Origin: a virus
DNA: 28,951 nucleotides
Virus record (IMG/VR): IMGVR_UViG_3300010885_078176
Coordinates: 1-28,951 of that record
Strand: one strand, 5' to 3'
Position 1 is the first letter of the stretch, and each line of letters begins with the position of its first letter. The notes below the pieces were generated by a model, which was given only the letters and a program-made list of their open reading frames with translations, searched no databases and had not been told where the DNA came from. This document shows positions 623-28,444 of the stretch, in pieces. The position numbers and the translations under genes are program-made.

Positions 623-1171
623 ATGTTACTTAACGTCAGGCAAAATGGTTTTATCATAACCTTTCCTCCAACCTATTTTTCAAATAAAGTAAAGGAAAAG
701 TACAAAAAGTACTATCAAAGCCTAATTTTACCTTATGATACGATTGAAGACTTTATGTCTTCAACTATTCAATCTATTGATTTTCCTGGATGGACTATGA
801 CTCTGGCTCAACAGACTCGTCCCTTAGGTAAAAGACAAGAGTATAAGAGTTCTATTCCAGTAATCGATAACTTTACTAGAGAGTTTACCATTACGTTTAA
901 GATGACAGACGCATACCTAAACTATTTTATCTTTTTGGAAAACAGTTTAGAATTTTTAGATTTTGACAATAAAAAACAAGTATACGATCCAATTAGATTA
1001 TCACTAATGGACAATCAAGGATATTTAGTAGCATCAATCATTTTTGTCGATCCGTTACTCAAAGGACAGGATGGATTTAAACTATCATATAGTTCAAACA
1101 CGCCTGATTTTAAAACCTTTCAGGCAAAATTCCAATACTTTAAATTTGATGTTGAATTAGACTTCAATTAA
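623..1171 (+). CDS. Tail-tube-like (T4 gp19-type) structural protein
   Basis: This 182-aa protein is beta-rich with no membrane segment. Its layout matches the T4 tail-tube fold as I know it. There is an N-terminal strand (GFIITFPPTYF), a central FTREFTITFKMTDAYLNYFIF segment, then PIRLSLMDNQGY and a C-terminal LSYS-x7-F-K-T-F-x2-K-F-x-Y-F-K block typical of tube and tube-initiator proteins. It could be the main tube protein or a baseplate-tube junction protein of the gp48/gp54 kind; the sequence alone does not separate these. Its TAA overlaps the stop of the convergent fibre gene by 4 bp, so there is no room for a conventional terminator between the two transcripts. Confidence 0.55.
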   Translation: MLLNVRQNGFIITFPPTYFSNKVKEKYKKYYQSLILPYDTIEDFMSSTIQSIDFPGWTMTLAQQTRPLGKRQEYKSSIPVIDNFTREFTITFKMTDAYLNYFIFLENSLEFLDFDNKKQVYDPIRLSLMDNQGYLVASIIFVDPLLKGQDGFKLSYSSNTPDFKTFQAKFQYFKFDVELDFN

Positions 1172-3573
1172 GAAGTTAACCTGATTTCTACTCCATCGAT
1201 ATGAGCAAGAACTCTCAAGTACGTTCCTGAGATTGCACCTACTGCGACCTCAATCTTTAAAAAATCGTTTAAGTCATTTGCCGTAACTGCAACTGACACT
1301 GCTGCACTTGCATCCTCGTCTGTACCTAATGTAATGACTGATCCGACTAGCGTAGTTGTTCCTCCAAGGTTTTGAATAGTTACCTGGCGTAGGAATCTAA
1401 CTGAAGTTAAGCCATCGTCTGAGATACCTACTATATTTAACGTTCCTGAAAAAATACTGTTCTGCTGAACATCGAATCTAGCTCCTAATTGATTTAAGTA
1501 TAAAACGTCAGTTGAAGATGCCAAAAATTCTGCTCTAGCTAAAGCTGAAACATGTTGAGCATCTCCTGGAAAATTAAAGATTCCGCTTGAACGAGCTACT
1601 TCTCCATAACGAGTAGAATGAGCGTAATATCCGCTGGCCGTTGAAATATCTCCAGTTGAAACGTTTCCTCTACCTCCGAGCACAATAGAATAATTTCCTA
1701 CCGCTGTGTTTAAACAACCTCCGGTAATGGAAGAAGAAGGACCTTCTGCACTGTTTAACTTTCCTCCGCTTATTATGCTATAATATCCAGATGCGCTATT
1801 GCAATATCCTCCACTTATCGTTGATCTTATTCCAAGTGCACAATTAAGTCTGCCTCCAGAAATAACAGTTGCATATCCACTTGCAGTGTTACAATATCCT
1901 CCGCTAACTGTTGAATTTTGACCACTTGCAGAATTTCCATATCCACCGCTAATGGTTGTTGTAATATTTAATGCACTATTATTTTTGCCTCCTCCAACTG
2001 TAGATCTAGCACAGGTTGCACAGTTATTTCTACCACCGGCAACGACTGTTCCAGTTCCATCAGTATAATTAAGATATCCTCCAGAAATAGTTGAATCTTG
2101 ACCATTTGCACAATTGTTTCTACCTCCACCAACTGTGCTGAAGAAACTAGTAGTACAATTCGAACACCCTCCAGATATAGTTGATGTGCCGCTATCTGAT
2201 TCATTAGCTTTGCCACCAGCAATTACGGAATATGTTCCACTAATAATATTTCCACAACCGCCTCCAATAGAAGAATAACAGCAGCTTACTACATTATTTC
2301 TTCCGCTTACCACTGCAGAATGGTTGCCAGAGGCAGTATTAGACCTACCGTTTCCAACGAAAGCGTAATCATTACTTGAAGTATTGTTACAGCCACCGCC
2401 GACACTTGAGTAGTATCCACTTGCACTATTACTGTAACCTCCACTGACCGTTGAATATTCGCAACTTGCAGTATTATCATAACCTCCGCTTACAGTTGAA
2501 TAGCATCCACTTGCAGTATTATTATAGCCTCCGTTTACAGTTGAATAGCCTCCGCTTGCAGTATTATTATAACCTCCACTAACGGTTGCGCCATATGCGC
2601 TAGCTGAATTGTTTAGATCTTTACGAACAGTTGTTCCAGCTAAGGTGTCTTGAATAATTACTGCATCACTCGATGCTGTAGTTACTCCTATTTCAATTCT
2701 ATTATTGAGTGTGTCATTGTTAAAGGTCCAAGTAGCACTAGGCGTAGGTAAAAAATTTAAAGTTCCTTGTGTGCCAACGGCAGTTCCGTCATCTTCTACA
2801 GAAATTTTAATATCTGCATCTGCGGTTAACGTATTTGAGAGATCATTATATGTCCATGTAATACTCGCAGAGTCTTGAATCAAATTTGAAACACGATCGT
2901 CTACTCTTTCATCTGTGAAATAAAGGTTAGCTCCTTCGCTTAGGTCTCCAGTGTTGAATGGAGTAAGAGAAACAGTAGGTGTAAGTCGACCTAGCGAATC
3001 GTTATATGCCCATGTAATAGAACTTGGGCCGCTTCCTTTAAGTCCAGTTCTAAGCAAGGCTGAGACTCTATCGTCTACTCGCTCGTCTGTGAAATAAAGA
3101 TTGGATATGCCTTCTGACAGGGCATCTGTGTTGAATGGAGTAAGCGATATTATTGGACGTAACGTGTTTGCCGCATCGTCATACTGCCAAGTAACGCTGT
3201 TTGCGCCTGTTCCAGTAAGACCAGTATTTAATAGAGAAGCAACTCTGTCGTCTGTTCTTTCATTAGTAAAGTAAAGATTTGTTCCTTCTGGTAAATCAGA
3301 TGTTGAAAATACAGATAATGAAACGTCTCCTTGTAAAGTTCCAGCAATTGAATTGTAGGTCCACGTCAAACCAGTTCCATTTAAGATAGAACTTGCGGTG
3401 AGCGCAATTGCGCTAATATTTACAAATGAAAGATTTCCTGAACCGTCTGTTGAAATTAATTGACCTGCGAGTCCATCGATTAGTGGAAACGTAAATTGAC
3501 CGAGAATTGTTAGTTTTTCGGCTTTTAATTCACCTACTATTTCAACGTCACTGTAAATTAACTTATCTGCCAT
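1168..3573 (-). CDS. Large tail fibre / adhesin with YadA-head-like repeats
   Basis: This 801-aa protein is a predicted virion fibre. Residues 1-60 form a short attachment region. Residues about 60-240 hold three full copies and partial copies of a unit containing x-T-W-x-Y-N-D followed by D-L-S-E-G-x-N-L-Y-F-T-D-E-R-V-D-D-R-V, common in phage fibres. Residues about 325-645 carry about 21 tandem 15-residue units of the type S-T-V-S-G-G-Y-x-N-T-A-S-G-x-Y, the left-handed beta-roll repeat of trimeric autotransporter heads (YadA/Hep_Hag). The last 150 residues are a non-repeated tip. The repeat block holds about 15 cysteines, unusual for a fibre. It is 13 nt downstream of another fibre gene and is likely read from the same promoter. 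A trimeric receptor-binding fibre is the best reading. Confidence 0.85.
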   Translation of the reverse strand: MADKLIYSDVEIVGELKAEKLTILGQFTFPLIDGLAGQLISTDGSGNLSFVNISAIALTASSILNGTGLTWTYNSIAGTLQGDVSLSVFSTSDLPEGTNLYFTNERTDDRVASLLNTGLTGTGANSVTWQYDDAANTLRPIISLTPFNTDALSEGISNLYFTDERVDDRVSALLRTGLKGSGPSSITWAYNDSLGRLTPTVSLTPFNTGDLSEGANLYFTDERVDDRVSNLIQDSASITWTYNDLSNTLTADADIKISVEDDGTAVGTQGTLNFLPTPSATWTFNNDTLNNRIEIGVTTASSDAVIIQDTLAGTTVRKDLNNSASAYGATVSGGYNNTASGGYSTVNGGYNNTASGCYSTVSGGYDNTASCEYSTVSGGYSNSASGYYSSVGGGCNNTSSNDYAFVGNGRSNTASGNHSAVVSGRNNVVSCCYSSIGGGCGNIISGTYSVIAGGKANESDSGTSTISGGCSNCTTSFFSTVGGGRNNCANGQDSTISGGYLNYTDGTGTVVAGGRNNCATCARSTVGGGKNNSALNITTTISGGYGNSASGQNSTVSGGYCNTASGYATVISGGRLNCALGIRSTISGGYCNSASGYYSIISGGKLNSAEGPSSSITGGCLNTAVGNYSIVLGGRGNVSTGDISTASGYYAHSTRYGEVARSSGIFNFPGDAQHVSALARAEFLASSTDVLYLNQLGARFDVQQNSIFSGTLNIVGISDDGLTSVRFLRQVTIQNLGGTTTLVGSVITLGTDEDASAAVSVAVTANDLNDFLKIEVAVGAISGTYLRVLAHIDGVEIRLTS
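1630..2600 (-). repeat. Tandem 45-bp coding repeats in the fibre gene
   Basis: About 21 degenerate 45-bp units encode 15-residue beta-roll repeats. The most conserved codons specify S-G-G and N-T-A-S-G, while the residues between them vary (Y, C, R, K). The best-preserved copies are at 2400-2600; units become more diverged toward 1650. This is coding sequence, not a CRISPR array. Confidence 0.85.
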
Positions 3574-5112: not shown

Positions 5113-6441
5113 TTATCTCTTGATTCTATCTAAGATTTTTGTTTTATCGTCAATTGTTGAATTTAGAGTAAAATTTCCATGTTTTACTAGACATTCACTT
5201 AGGTGAGCGTTTATCATTTTCTTTGGAGCGTTATCTAAATAACTAGAAAAGATCTCATTTGCTTCTCCTAAATAATCACAATTGATTATCTTTGAACTCT
5301 TTATAACATTGTTTGAAAAGATCGTGCATTCAACTAGTTTTGAATTCTTGATAGCACAATTCTCAAACAAACAGTTTTTGGAATCTGCTTCAATTTTGCA
5401 CTGATAGAATTCAATACCTTCAACTAGGATACTTTTTTTGATTTCAGCATCCTTTATCTGTAAAACCTTTCTTCTAGTATCGTAATTTATGATTCCTTCT
5501 GAAATACCTCCTCCGACAATCAGTTTAAATATTTTTTCTCTTAGGATAGTATAATTTGCCTCAATGAGCTGTCTATCTGGTTTAAGATCAATGTATATTG
5601 CAATATTTGGATATAGCGCTTTAAAGTTGAAGTAGCTTCTAGTTCCATCTATTGAGTTCCTAAATTCATTTACTATTTTTGAAATTTTTGATTTTTCCTC
5701 GGTAGTATATGAATAGTTATTCTTTAGAGTTTCATATACGTGTTCGATCACTATATTAATAGTAGAAACAGACTCTTTTTTCTTTTTAGTATAGTCTTTT
5801 CCAGAGATGTATCTTAGCGTTAAATAACTTTCACCTAAATGAGAAAAATCATTTGCAAAAAAATCTGATTCTGGAAAAGAAAATTCAGTAGGATCCATTT
5901 TTTCAATAAAACCTTCGGTTATTACAGTATTGTATATTTCCCTAGGCTGTATAAATTGCAAGTGATTCTGATAGATTATGTTACGCTCATTTTCAGTAGA
6001 AGGCCACATTTCAAAAAGATCTGCTTCATTTATTCCTAGTAAATATTTAAAACGATTAAGTTTACTAAGACCTGACTGCAATCCAAGATCACGTTCATTC
6101 ATTTTTAGGCTGGTCTGTACTGCGCAGCGATCTGTCGTAAAACCTATAGTATCAATAATATTCATGGTCTTTAGAAACATGTGCATTGCTTCTTGATATG
6201 GCATGAATCCAGTAGATAGAGTTATCTCTTTATATCCGTTTGAATAGGTTGGCGACACTTTAAATGTTTCACACGTCGGTTCAAAGCTCGGTGAAACCTC
6301 AGTAAACCACTTAATTTTCTTACCAAGCGAACGTGCAAATTTTGCAGCGACCTCTCTTTTATTGAGTGGAGTGAAAAATTCAAATACAAAGGATAGACTA
6401 GTCTGGTCGTAGATTTCTTTCTTTGACAGTACTTTAAACAT
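5113..6441 (-). CDS. Amidoligase-like protein with beta-helix-like C-terminus
   Basis: This 442-aa protein begins with a strand containing F-V-F-E-F-F-T-P (E at residue 21), then a helix, a Y-x-E-I-T-L-S-T-G-F-M-P-Y segment and a long helix followed by R-C-A-V-Q-T-S-L. This order resembles the N-terminal part of putative phage amidoligases (COOH-NH2 ligases, PF12224), where E-x-E starts the fold and a G-x-H-x-x-x segment completes the site. Here the expected histidine is a glutamine, so activity is doubtful. Residues about 345-400 show short repeats with N-C/S-x-(F/L)-x-(N/E)-C spacing, like a small right-handed beta-helix. It is transcribed with the fibre genes, so a role in tail or fibre assembly is possible. 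The assignment rests on remembered pattern only. Confidence 0.5.
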   Translation of the reverse strand: MFKVLSKKEIYDQTSLSFVFEFFTPLNKREVAAKFARSLGKKIKWFTEVSPSFEPTCETFKVSPTYSNGYKEITLSTGFMPYQEAMHMFLKTMNIIDTIGFTTDRCAVQTSLKMNERDLGLQSGLSKLNRFKYLLGINEADLFEMWPSTENERNIIYQNHLQFIQPREIYNTVITEGFIEKMDPTEFSFPESDFFANDFSHLGESYLTLRYISGKDYTKKKKESVSTINIVIEHVYETLKNNYSYTTEEKSKISKIVNEFRNSIDGTRSYFNFKALYPNIAIYIDLKPDRQLIEANYTILREKIFKLIVGGGISEGIINYDTRRKVLQIKDAEIKKSILVEGIEFYQCKIEADSKNCLFENCAIKNSKLVECTIFSNNVIKSSKIINCDYLGEANEIFSSYLDNAPKKMINAHLSECLVKHGNFTLNSTIDDKTKILDRIKR

Positions 6442-20673: not shown

Positions 20674-22272
20674 ATGAATCAATTCTTGCAAAGAATATTA
20701 ACAGAGCTAAATAGTAATCCTTCTATTAACTCTGAGCCCTTGGTAAAAATGCTCGTTGGGTCAGCCAATAAATCGATTGCTTTGGGAGAAAGTACCGAAG
20801 CTATTTATACAGATCTTAAAAACAGTCTTACTTCGATCAATGAGAATCTTAATAATCCTACGATTAAAGTAATATTGAAGCAGTTTTCAAAAAATGAAGA
20901 TACTGTAGATTCTAGACTTTTAAAGATTGCAAAAGAATCAAACCTTCTTGATAAGATCAGCTTACTTAAAGAATCTCAACTTTATTCTGAACCGGTTGCA
21001 CAAGCAGCAATCGATCTTTTTGAAAGTGAATTAAATAGCGGAATCATTGCTGCTGCACTTTGTGGAAAATTTGTGGATGTTTTTGAACAATATTCATATG
21101 ATGTTACTGCAAAAACTGCAGTGGATAATGTGAAGAAATATATCACTGAGAATTGGGACAAACTTTTAATGCTACGTACAATCTATCAGATTGATAATAT
21201 GAGAGTTCCTTCTTATGCTGGTGTAGTTTCAGATCTAAAAAATATGTTAGTAAAAGAAACATATACTGCAGATATCCTAAAGATCAAATATAACAATACT
21301 GTTGCTCCTATCACGCATTTGATCAACGACCTTAGAATTTTTGAATCTCAAAAGAACGGAAGTTTCACAGTAGGTGAAGGAAATAGCGATACTGTAATTA
21401 ATAACCTAATTGCTCCTTCAACTAGAACAGCGGACGGAATGATTATTTACACAGATAATCGTTTCCTTTCTATTCGTGAAGCAAAAGGATTAATTGGAAC
21501 AGAAGTTAAAGTGCACTATGATGGAAACTTTAAGATCTCTGATTTGTCTCCAGAATACGTTAGTGAAAATCATTCTGATTTTTATAATTTATGTGAAGCG
21601 TATCATAGTCTAGGTTTTTCAAAAACTCAAGACGGTCTAGGTGTTGAAACACATAACATCAAAAATCTTAGAGTAGGTTTAAGAATGAATGAAAACAAAA
21701 GTCTTGATGTCTTTATTAATGGTGAAAAGATTGGCGAGCCTAAGAGTATTAACGTTTCTGAAGCATTAGCTCTTGATAGCAACTTAAATAAAACAAGACT
21801 TACTACTATTCTTGAAAACATTGAAACTATTTATAACTTTGAGTTTATTAAAGAAGTTTCAAATGATCGTCGTATTGCTGAAGCATCAATCTTAAATCTA
21901 AATAAAGATTTTTATATCTGCGAAAAAGTAAATTCTGCAGATCGTGTATGGACTAAAGTTGACGAATTTGAATTATATGAATTCTTCAAATCAAAATTCG
22001 ATTATGACATTAGTCCAATTTTTAAAACTAAAATCGAAGAATCAGTCGATGCTTTAAATAAAGCAGAAGCTGCAAAATCTAAGATTAACAGTGATATTCA
22101 AAAATTAGAAGAATCTATTCAAAAGCTTGATACTGCAATTGAAAATCCAAACTTAACGGATGCTGAAAGCGGAAGACTTAGCTCAATCAAAGAATCTATT
22201 GAATCTACGATTAAGGAACTTAAAGAAACATATATTCGAATCGATCTTTTAAAAAAAAAGGAGCTAGCGTAA
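20674..22272 (+). CDS. Unknown structural-type protein, zero-frame product of a probable frameshift gene
   Basis: The zero-frame product is 532 aa and ends K-K-K-E-L-A. Residues 1-240 are strongly helical with S-L-T-S-I-N-E-N-L-N-N-P-type repeats. A central part (about 240-400) has a beta domain (G-T-E-V-K-V-H-Y-D-G-N-F-K-I, then V-G-L-R-M-N-E-N-K-S-L-D-V-F-I-N-G-E). The C-terminal 80 residues form a coiled coil ending at a run of nine A. Directly after the slip site a second frame continues for 86 codons with a KOW-like domain and no start codon of its own, so the full product is probably about 615 aa. No family is recognised. A late-type octamer lies upstream and a terminator follows the extended frame, which supports treating both frames as one gene. 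Confidence 0.65.
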   Translation: MNQFLQRILTELNSNPSINSEPLVKMLVGSANKSIALGESTEAIYTDLKNSLTSINENLNNPTIKVILKQFSKNEDTVDSRLLKIAKESNLLDKISLLKESQLYSEPVAQAAIDLFESELNSGIIAAALCGKFVDVFEQYSYDVTAKTAVDNVKKYITENWDKLLMLRTIYQIDNMRVPSYAGVVSDLKNMLVKETYTADILKIKYNNTVAPITHLINDLRIFESQKNGSFTVGEGNSDTVINNLIAPSTRTADGMIIYTDNRFLSIREAKGLIGTEVKVHYDGNFKISDLSPEYVSENHSDFYNLCEAYHSLGFSKTQDGLGVETHNIKNLRVGLRMNENKSLDVFINGEKIGEPKSINVSEALALDSNLNKTRLTTILENIETIYNFEFIKEVSNDRRIAEASILNLNKDFYICEKVNSADRVWTKVDEFELYEFFKSKFDYDISPIFKTKIEESVDALNKAEAAKSKINSDIQKLEESIQKLDTAIENPNLTDAESGRLSSIKESIESTIKELKETYIRIDLLKKKELA

Positions 22273-22291
22273 ACGAATCGCTGGACGTTAG
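22254..22291 (+). other. Probable programmed -1 frameshift site
   Basis: The heptamer A-AAA-AAG (22254-22260) is in phase with the zero frame and is the same sequence used by E. coli dnaX. It is preceded by more A and T. A stem CTAGCGT (22264-22270) can pair with ACGTTAG (22285-22291), seven pairs with one G-U, starting 3 nt after the slip; a shorter alternative AGCG/CGCT exists inside. Shifting back by one gives an open frame to 22520. A homopolymer sequencing error is the main alternative. Confidence 0.5.
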
Positions 22292-22520
22292 AATAAAGTC
22301 TCATAAATATCGAATAGGACAATCTGTCACACTAAAAGGTAAAATAGGAAAAGTTACAGCAATCAATGGAGCAACCGGAGATTATCTAGTAATGTTAGAT
22401 TCAAAAAACGAAAGATGTAAAGAATCTCAACTTTCTCCAGTAGAAATAAAATCCAGAAAGCCAAAGAAAAAAGACGTTCAACGAAAAGCACTACCAAAGG
22501 AAAAGAAATCATCACTTTAA
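22260..22520 (+). CDS. C-terminal extension in the -1 frame, KOW-like domain
   Basis: In the frame reached by a -1 slip, 86 codons run from the slip site to TAA at 22518-22520. The frame is closed upstream by a stop at 22221 and contains no ATG, GTG or TTG near its start, so it cannot readily be expressed alone. The product reads N-E-S-L-D-V-R-I-K-S-H-K-Y-R-I-G-Q-S-V, then a barrel-like K-G-K-I-G-K-V-T-A-I-N-G-x4-Y-L-V-M-L-D, typical of KOW/SH3-like nucleic-acid- or protein-binding domains, and a very basic tail (K-S-R-K-P-K-K-K). It is followed at once by a terminator. It is either the frameshifted end of the 20674 gene or, if an A was lost or gained in sequencing, its normal C-terminus. Confidence 0.6.
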   Translation, partial: GASVNESLDVRIKSHKYRIGQSVTLKGKIGKVTAINGATGDYLVMLDSKNERCKESQLSPVEIKSRKPKKKDVQRKALPKEKKSSL

Positions 22521-22521
22521 T

Positions 22522-22547
22522 AAAAAGGAGCATTTTGCTCCTTTTTT
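22522..22547 (+). terminator. Rho-independent terminator
   Basis: A perfect 11-bp stem (AAAAAGGAGCA and complement) with a 3-nt loop and a T-run lies immediately after the TAA of the extended frame. It isolates the preceding gene from the methyltransferase gene. Confidence 0.85.
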
Positions 22548-27112: not shown

Positions 27113-27969
27113 TGTCACTAAAAAACTTTGAAGATTACGGTAAGCTGTATTCAAAGGATCCTAAAACCTTTGAAAAAAGGATTGCGTTTGCATGTCATGA
27201 AAATTATGGCTTAGACATATTTGAATTGATTAAAACACCATTTGATTTTAAAGGAACTAATGAGTCTCCAATTATTCGTTGGGGAGATTTTAGTTTTGAA
27301 TCTAATGACATTAATGAGAACTCGTTATTTCATTATAATGCTAATCCGCTGCCTAAATACAAGGACATTCTTAAAAAAATGGGCGAAGCTGATTTTTTAC
27401 CTAAATCTACAAAAGATAGACGTTTAGTAAAGAAATTAAAATTTCCTATTACTGCAAGTTCCGATAACTCAAAGGAAGAATTTAAAACCTATGGAAAATT
27501 TAAAAAATCAGAAAAGAACTTTGATTCTTTTGATGAAAAAATAACTCCTTTGACTCGATTTGATATTATTGCATATAAGAAGAAACCAATACACGTTCAG
27601 GAAAGAATCAATAAGATAGGATTCGACGTTGACCTTAGAGGATTCAAATATCTTGATGAGGCAAATTCAATATTAAAAAACATTTATGAAAAAAATCCAG
27701 CTGATTTCTATCACGTAGAAGTTTTAGAATCAAATGGAAAATTATTTTTAAACGATATTACTCAAACTTTTCCACTGACTCCATCTCAGGGAGTCAGAAT
27801 GTATGAAACAGCGTATTCGCAATTTTATGAATCTGAGTTGCCAGCTTGGTTTAAGAAAAAAGAATTATTTGAAAAGATAGTCCTGCCTTATTATAAAAAG
27901 CGATACTATGATTCTCTTTTAATAAAACCAAAACACTCAATAGACTTTAAAAAATATGGCGATTCTTAA
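27112..27969 (+). CDS. ATP-grasp-like protein
   Basis: This 285-aa protein starts in the stop of the previous gene (TAATG). The middle shows a pattern like an ATP-grasp ligase: a basic strand K-K-L-K-F-P-I-T-A-S-S, a loop, then a strand after a proline (I-T-P-L-T-R-F-D-I-I-A-Y). The end of the domain has F-Y-H-V-E-V-L-E-S-N-G-K-L-F-L-N-D-I-T-Q, where ATP-grasp enzymes place their metal-binding D/E and N. The N-terminus S-L-K-N-F-E-D-Y resembles the tag motif seen elsewhere. It overlaps the Nudix gene by 14 bp. The assignment rests on pattern only; a kinase-like or other nucleotide-binding fold is an alternative. Confidence 0.5.
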   Translation: MSLKNFEDYGKLYSKDPKTFEKRIAFACHENYGLDIFELIKTPFDFKGTNESPIIRWGDFSFESNDINENSLFHYNANPLPKYKDILKKMGEADFLPKSTKDRRLVKKLKFPITASSDNSKEEFKTYGKFKKSEKNFDSFDEKITPLTRFDIIAYKKKPIHVQERINKIGFDVDLRGFKYLDEANSILKNIYEKNPADFYHVEVLESNGKLFLNDITQTFPLTPSQGVRMYETAYSQFYESELPAWFKKKELFEKIVLPYYKKRYYDSLLIKPKHSIDFKKYGDS

Positions 27970-28444
27970 TTTTAATAACTACATAAAAGAAGAAAGGCTT
28001 ATAAAAAAACTAGTTGGCATTACAGCTGGAGTCGCTCTTATTTATGATAATAAGATTCTTTTGGTACATCCTACTAGTTCTAGCTGGAGTAAAGGTACAT
28101 GTGGAATACCTAAAGGTAGAATCGAAGAATCTGAAGATTCAATGGAAGCTGCTCTTCGTGAACTCAAAGAAGAAACAGGTATTCATCTGACTCCAGACCA
28201 ATTAAATTCATCTCCAGAAACCGTAGAAATTTTTAAGCCGACTGGTGAACTAAGTCGTCAGCTCACGTATTATGTGTGCGCGATCAATTCTTTAGATGAA
28301 GCAGGACTGTCTTCTGAAAGTATTCCTAAAGACCAACTGCAGGCAGAAGAAATAGATTGGGCAAAATTCGTGGGCATTGATGAAGCATATAGAATAACTT
28401 CAAGATCGCAATTAATTATATTAGATCGGCATCTTAGAAGATAA
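27956..28444 (+). CDS. Nudix hydrolase with N-terminal tag
   Basis: This 162-aa protein carries a perfect Nudix box at residues 54-76: G-x5-E-x7-R-E-L-K-E-E-T-G-I. The box coordinates metal for cleaving nucleoside diphosphates linked to another group. The substrate cannot be read from the sequence. The fold is complete, with L-V-G-I-T-A-G-V-A-L-I at its first strand. Ahead of it is a 17-residue extension, A-I-L-N-F-N-N-Y-I-K-E-E-R, not part of the Nudix fold. It ends in an I-K-E site like those cut by the T4 prohead protease, so this enzyme may be packaged and injected. Its gene overlaps the ATP-grasp-like gene by 14 bp, and its stop lies inside a late-type octamer. Confidence 0.9.
   Translation: MAILNFNNYIKEERLIKKLVGITAGVALIYDNKILLVHPTSSSWSKGTCGIPKGRIEESEDSMEAALRELKEETGIHLTPDQLNSSPETVEIFKPTGELSRQLTYYVCAINSLDEAGLSSESIPKDQLQAEEIDWAKFVGIDEAYRITSRSQLIILDRHLRR

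Follow-up and report, generated by a model that had tools for sequence, protein, structure and literature searches.

Organization of the locus

The DNA analyzed here, referred to as the window, is an IMG/VR virus record of 28,951 bases (a 29-kb fragment). It contains an open reading frame (ORF) for a protein of 532 aa, referred to as the carrier, whose 3' codons, TTA AAA AAA AAG GAG CTA GCG TAA, include a run of nine A's that is the sole run of at least eight A's or T's in the window. The -1 frame is open from this run through its own TAA, and the 87 aa encoded from the AAA at 22257 (P0002) would give a predicted fusion of 615 aa (Table 1). An initial annotation of the window had placed the heptamer A AAA AAG 12 nt before the zero-frame stop, the TAA at 22270, which is correct when counted from the AAG codon; from the end of the heptamer the distance is 9 nt. 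The same annotation described an open -1 frame that lacks a start codon and ends just before a terminator, and this description is also accurate, the earliest start codon of the frame being an ATG within the barrel.

Table 1. Features of the recoding region in the window
Feature	Positions	Strand	Basis
Zero-frame ORF, carrier, 532 aa	20674..22272	+	AF2 pLDDT 87; site enrichment
Slippery run of nine A's	22251..22259	+	Run of 8 to 10 A's in 21/21 frameshift forms
In-phase heptamer A AAA AAG	22254..22260	+	Sequence scan
-1 frame extension, 87 codons plus stop (TAA at 22518-22520): linker, SH3/KOW-like barrel, basic tail	22257..22520	+	Purifying selection
6-bp stem 3' of the slip site	22264..22284	+	22264-22269 pairs with 22279-22284; not conserved
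Predicted prohead-protease site V-N-E/S, -1 frame, directly after the slip	22269..22280	+	[LIV]xE in 21/21 frameshift forms
SH3-like (KOW/Tudor-like) barrel	22305..22442	+	AF2 model; Foldseek
Lys/Arg-rich tail	22443..22517	+	pI 10.2 for the part after the V-N-E/S site
Terminator-like hairpin with T tail	22522..22546	+	Directly after the -1 frame stop

The nearest named relatives of the terminase include proteins of Flavobacterium, Tenacibaculum, and Prevotella phages (29 to 31% identity) and of Sphingomonas phage PAU (33%), and several of these suggest that the host probably belongs to the Bacteroidota. Long ORFs with many SGGYNNTASG-like repeats occur in the window (1168 to 3573, minus strand) and in a relative (L108, 13747 to 15519). 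Past the terminator, a stretch resembling TAGTATAAT was seen by eye to recur downstream of carriers in many loci and is perhaps a phage promoter.

Conservation of the frameshift arrangement

Single-sequence searches with the 532-aa protein or the extension gave no match in annotated phages or IMG/VR. Relatives were reached through the neighboring 335-aa gene (74 loci) and 657-aa gene (35 loci) and then with a profile, and most of the loci found through these neighbors contained a carrier homolog. The profile scan gave 69 loci, of which 18, taken as lying on new contigs, were examined. Sequence duplicates, L217 (with the same junction sequence as L210), and loci on contigs that end too early (L032, L042, L059, L094, L159, and L180) were left out of the counts.

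Four arrangements were identified among the relatives. The frameshift form, in which the barrel is encoded in the -1 frame as in the window, was found at 21 distinct loci, including the window, from many metagenome records and down to 26 to 29% identity. The second arrangement has the barrel in an ORF of its own (10 rows, and in addition L169 and L172). In the third, found in several relatives including five rows of the profile-scan set, the carrier is extended in frame by other domains, and in the fourth it has no extension. A run of at least eight A's was present in all 13 frameshift rows and none of 28 others in the first set (Fisher P of 6e-11, a value that overstates independence, since the rows are kin), and in 8 of 8 versus 0 of 7 rows of the profile-scan set. 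Overall, a run of 8 to 10 A's accompanies every one of the 21 frameshift forms and none of the 35 relatives without a -1 overlap, and it lies 1 to 15 nt from the zero-frame stop in the 19 rows measured. The initial annotation had proposed comparing relatives for retention of the slippery site versus a continuous frame; the run is kept in all frameshift forms, and none of the relatives examined has the barrel fused in frame to the carrier.

The dN/dS in the -1 frame was 0.016/0.24 for the pair L082 and L098 and 0.113/0.92 for L064 and L067; the purifying signal was less clear in L078 and L081 (dN/dS about 0.5). As judged from close pairs, in which changes are mostly silent, purifying selection acts on the -1 frame. 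On a midpoint-rooted tree of 39 carriers, the frameshift form changes at least four times, a pattern that would fit either a single early origin followed by losses or several independent origins. The locus thus bears the marks of programmed -1 recoding, namely, an in-phase slippery sequence near the zero-frame stop, conservation in relatives, and selection on the extension, and the recoding step is very probably real, as the initial annotation had proposed.

Mode of slippage

The initial annotation had likened the site to that of dnaX, with a stimulatory stem of 7 bp downstream of the heptamer. The recoding that appends a barrel and a basic tail is supported, and neither the dnaX-like stem nor the fixed ratio of products foreseen in that annotation finds support. 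The stem comprises 6 bp and has an ordinary folding energy (z of 0.09 over 60 nt and -1.69 for a 37-nt cut), and no conserved downstream RNA stem was found in 19 rows (mean z, -0.19), with values of -2.5 in L215 and -1.9 in L218. Since a stimulatory 3' structure is unnecessary for slippage on an A-run, its absence counts against a dnaX-type site and not against recoding.

Ribosomal and transcriptional slippage are both possible, and the sequence by itself is compatible with either. In the transcriptional case, RNA polymerase and not the ribosome would slip, and transcripts with one extra A would carry the fusion in a continuous frame, a change that concerns only the first step of the mechanism proposed below. 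Runs of 8 to 10 A's that lie in two codon phases and lack a conserved downstream structure are consistent with this reading, and bacterial RNA polymerase slips efficiently at nine A's or T's, for example in Thermus dnaX (PMC5009743). On the other hand, an in-phase A AAA AAA or A AAA AAG is present in both phases of the run, as suits a ribosomal slip. Frameshifting in Escherichia coli cassettes amounted to 10% with 7 A's, 40% with 9, and 63% with 11 (PMC3711429), figures that by themselves do not discriminate between the two mechanisms. Slippage by the polymerase is regarded as a serious possibility that falls just short of probable.

The carrier as a predicted prohead core protein

The carrier has a C-terminal coiled coil and contains 12 [LIV]xE[SAG] sites. 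In phage T4, the prohead protease gp21 cuts after L/I-X-E and fragments core proteins such as gp22 and gp67 (PMC9026906), and the multiple L/I-X-E sites that typify T4-type core proteins are likewise found in the carrier. The [LIV]xE[SAG] motif was enriched over shuffles in all 41 homologs (mean of 11.9 versus 2.2 sites; P of at most 0.005 for each), and 14 of 15 other window proteins lacked such enrichment. The excess in the carrier is specific to this motif, at 5.43-fold versus 0.26- to 1.97-fold for ten related motifs. Glutamate occupies at least 80% of rows in 15 columns, 7 of which (29, 224, 269, 308, 363, 403, and 507) stand within the protease-like context in at least 60% of rows; this holds for none of 42 columns with conserved D, K, N, Q, R, S, or T. 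A 442-aa ORF in the window (5113 to 6441, minus strand) without a family match contains 7 sites versus 1.3 expected and is perhaps another inner head protein.

In two relatives, the protease-scaffold ORFs were enriched as well (15 and 17 sites versus about 2.6), and the capsid proteins of the same relatives had a weaker excess (4 versus 1.4). In record G002, scanned outside a part near 40 to 47 kb, 4 of 122 ORFs of at least 150 aa were strongly enriched: the protease-scaffold ORF, the carrier, and two others. In G001, scanned outside gaps near 40 to 44 kb and the last 5 kb, the same was true of 3 of 141 such ORFs, and the carrier (8 sites; P of 0.005) lay below that cut.

The carrier profile matched three of eight named phage records, those of Lak-B5, pT24, and LR756502. 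In Tenacibaculum phage pT24, a distant homolog that starts with MKNFQSFV, an aromatic leader, contains 25 sites versus 4.3 expected; in the clade of the window, the carrier N terminus lacks the second aromatic residue of this leader. The homolog in Lak-B5, also distant, is not enriched (5 versus 3.7 sites) and lies about 5 kb from the capsid gene. The pT24 gene BPT24_169 (L132, 14058 to 16868), annotated as "DNA ligase 1," matched the carrier profile with an E value of 1.7e-7, and this name is probably wrong.

The AF2 model of the carrier is confident (Table 1). It gave no clear match when compared with the PDB, and the VIA-align rows cover chiefly the coiled coil. Searches of PDB, Pfam, and PHROG gave no match naming the carrier as a head protein; one of 33 carrier rows matched a PHROG "tape measure" with an E value of 0.005, and among the neighbors of the carrier in the window are genes for tail and baseplate components, such as a gp6-like wedge and a tail tube-like protein. 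The abundance, specificity, and conservation of the sites suggest that the carrier probably belongs to the prohead core of a T4-like phage, as an inner scaffold-type protein, and the site-density test provides a simple sequence-based way of spotting such proteins.

In L105, L072, L025, L044, and L054, unrelated domains follow the carrier in frame at one point; the domains appended in this way are Cys-rich, acidic, or a possible second barrel. An [LIV]xE was found at the junctions of in-frame extensions in 12 of 13 parsable rows (14 tried). This is weak evidence because [LIV]xE is common in the carrier: shuffles gave about 0.1 to 0.7 per row, and 64 to 87% of segments taken from the carrier body contain one.

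Linker, barrel, and tail of the extension

The AF2 model of the extension contains five strands and has an overall pLDDT of 71, rising to about 86 in the barrel. The best Foldseek match of the barrel was NusG (E value of 5.4e-3; probability of 1.00), followed by Tudor domains. Pfam KOW models did not match the extension, for which only a sub-threshold DUF2606 was returned, and it is therefore called SH3-like; the model has the five-stranded fold of SH3-like small barrels, with Foldseek E values of 5e-3 or weaker. The KOW-like domain named in the initial annotation is thus borne out by the resemblance of the model to NusG-KOW and Tudor barrels and not by the Pfam KOW models.

Every one of the 21 frameshift forms has an [LIV]xE in the linker that joins slip and barrel, a linker otherwise variable in length and sequence. 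In the window, this predicted site is V-N-E/S (the slash marks the cut), and its E, column E7, is invariant in alignment A2. Cleavage there would leave a product of 66 to 82 aa with a pI of 9.8 to 10.3 (18 rows of A2); the tails of L215 and L218, the two most distant cargoes, do not appear basic. An N-terminal targeting leader is absent from the -1 extension of the window.

Prohead protease and leader-bearing genes in relatives

An S77 protease was found in G001, which is also a frameshift form, and in G002. These are the two longest of 10 records, and the other eight, all shorter fragments, contained none. In L108 (8878 to 10857) and L109 (8510 to 10486), the prohead protease and scaffold seem to be joined in a single ORF that also carries approximately nine repeats of 14 residues, rich in Y..Y[LIV]xE.

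The targeting sequences of T4 comprise 10 to 19 residues, of which residues 4 and 7 serve in targeting and residues 8 and 10 in processing (PMC9026906). Several of the separate barrel genes begin with a T4-like leader, such as MKNILSYLDYISASLNEAL. The leader pattern, aromatic-x-x-aromatic followed by [LIV]xE, was found at 14 of 223 gene starts versus 4 of 667 internal Met residues in G001 (Fisher P of 3e-6) and at 18 of 200 versus 4 of 590 in G002 (Fisher P of 3e-8); in the first set of loci, which was smaller, the pattern was only slightly overrepresented (28 of 1032 versus 139 of 8080). A derivation of the leader by copying from the 14-residue scaffold repeat was considered and rejected, gene starts being not clearly enriched (8 of 1032 versus 39 of 7213 at a threshold of 6). 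Leaders of the form aromatic-x-x-aromatic-[LIV]-x-E, resembling T4 capsid targeting sequences, were also seen on NUDIX-like and other unrelated proteins encoded in the window (27956 to 28444 and 380 to 619) and by many genes of G001 and G002. The initial annotation mentioned neither the density of protease-like sites in the carrier, nor the further such site just past the slip, nor the occurrence of the barrel as a gene of its own in relatives, some of which give it a leader resembling a capsid-targeting sequence.

In L015, L018, L019, L021, and L070, a small lipoprotein-like ORF, with a hydrophobic start followed by C and then CDAY, lies between the carrier and the separate barrel gene. The barrel forms the C-terminal domain of a separate protein of 230 to 250 aa in L021 (17650 to 18426), L024 (18002 to 18766), and L074 (17700 to 18458), and in L021 and L024 this protein has a leader.

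Proposed mechanism and alternative readings

The features read from the sequence, namely, the conserved slip arrangement, the selection on the -1 frame, the abundance of sites in the carrier, and the site that follows the slip, together with the protease and leader-bearing genes of relatives, are consistent with the following proposed chain. When the carrier gene is expressed, either the ribosome would slip at A AAA AAG or RNA polymerase would insert an extra A in the nine-A run, and a fraction of the product would thereby move into the -1 frame. The shifted fraction would gain at its C terminus the V-N-E/S protease site, the small SH3-like barrel, and the basic tail, and the core protein would bring this extension into the prohead. 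There, cleavage of the core protein by the S77 prohead protease, at numerous LxE sites, would liberate the extension within the head. As an internal protein, the extension might then bind DNA or enter the host along with it. It is considered fairly likely that the whole chain holds, with a frameshift loading cargo onto a self-destructing core protein and a protease releasing the cargo in the head. A word search of the open-access literature found no description of frameshift fusion combined with proteolysis in tailed phages and no paper on the virion proteomics of a close relative. If true, the chain would amount to a natural means of supplying phage heads with protein cargo in a defined proportion. 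It would also show that evolution can arrive at the same outcome either through recoding or through a targeting peptide, the two being interchangeable, and it would assign a function to a family of genes in uncultivated phages that otherwise lacks annotation.

Alternatively, the extension may stay attached and uncleaved, in which case a minor fraction of a virion protein would bear an additional C-terminal domain, either displayed or structural. In lambda G/GT, a -1 frameshift close to the stop of the gene appends a small domain, which offers a precedent. Further phage precedents are the coat proteins of T3 and A2 (PMC5009743), and the different in-frame domains borne by other relatives at the carrier C terminus also accord with a lasting attachment. 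This reading is nevertheless unlikely: it has to contend with a carrier rich in protease-like sites, with the [LIV]xE that every frameshift form has in its linker, and with the existence of a separate-gene form bearing a leader.

In another reading, the -1 ORF is a separate gene expressed through coupling or reinitiation, as might be imagined from the relatives that hold the domain as its own ORF, above all L022 and L028, in which the ATG of the barrel gene adjoins or overlaps the carrier stop. However, 20 of the 21 frameshift forms have no ATG, GTG, or TTG before the barrel (19 scripted and L218 by eye), the sole exception being L215 with a GTG, and in eight rows (L005, L058, L064, L067, L160, L205, L206, and L214), a stop codon bordering the run on its 5' side closes the -1 frame. 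Separate expression is accordingly very improbable. A sequencing or assembly error that lost or added a homopolymer base is made conceivable by the length of this run, which no other A or T homopolymer in the window matches, but the same offset recurs at 21 loci from many metagenome records across the identity range given above, and since one homopolymer indel would fuse the frames permanently, yet no relative has the barrel in frame, error is excluded in practice.

Comparison with known systems

The proposed loading of cargo onto the core protein by recoding and its release by proteolysis can be set beside several known systems. The frameshift in E. coli dnaX makes a shorter product, whereas recoding here gives a longer one, in an unrelated gene and with no conserved stem. 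The slippery element, A AAA AAG or nine bases, is the feature shared with dnaX, both as frameshift site in E. coli and as slippage site in Thermus (PMC5009743).

The T4 internal proteins IPI to IPIII and Alt resemble the predicted product as small basic head cargo with L/I-X-E cleavage (here predicted sites only), and the leader aromatics of the separate-gene relatives and of other genes are spaced like residues 4 and 7 of the T4 proteins. Unlike these proteins, the cargo of the window and of 20 other loci has no leader of its own, and the fusion would target it.

In contrast to the recoded proteins of T3, A2, and lambda G/GT, the carrier is a predicted core protein, not a coat protein or chaperone, the linker contains a protease site, and the A-run lacks a conserved structure. 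What is shared with the T3 coat and Lactobacillus phage A2 is the gain of a small domain through a -1 frameshift close to the stop codon of a virion gene (PMC5009743).

The enzymes of retroviruses and totiviruses are dosed and packaged by way of a frameshift fusion that is later proteolyzed. In Gag-Pol, being joined by frameshift to capsid components ahead of cleavage aids packaging (PMC5009743). As in retroviral and totiviral Gag-Pol, a minor frameshift product would here join cargo to a particle-forming protein, with cleavage later (PMC5009743). Several features set the system apart from Gag-Pol: it belongs to a DNA phage, an internal core protein is the predicted carrier, a small barrel takes the place of a polymerase as cargo, and the protease is encoded elsewhere, fused to the scaffold. 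The likeness is one of shared logic and does not imply common descent. It is slightly more likely than not that Gag-Pol logic operates in a clade of DNA phages, that the protease-driven destruction of a sacrificial core protein frees the cargo in the capsid, and that related phages attain the same outcome through a separate, leader-bearing gene or through other cargo appended in frame, the carrier C terminus then serving as a general loading dock.
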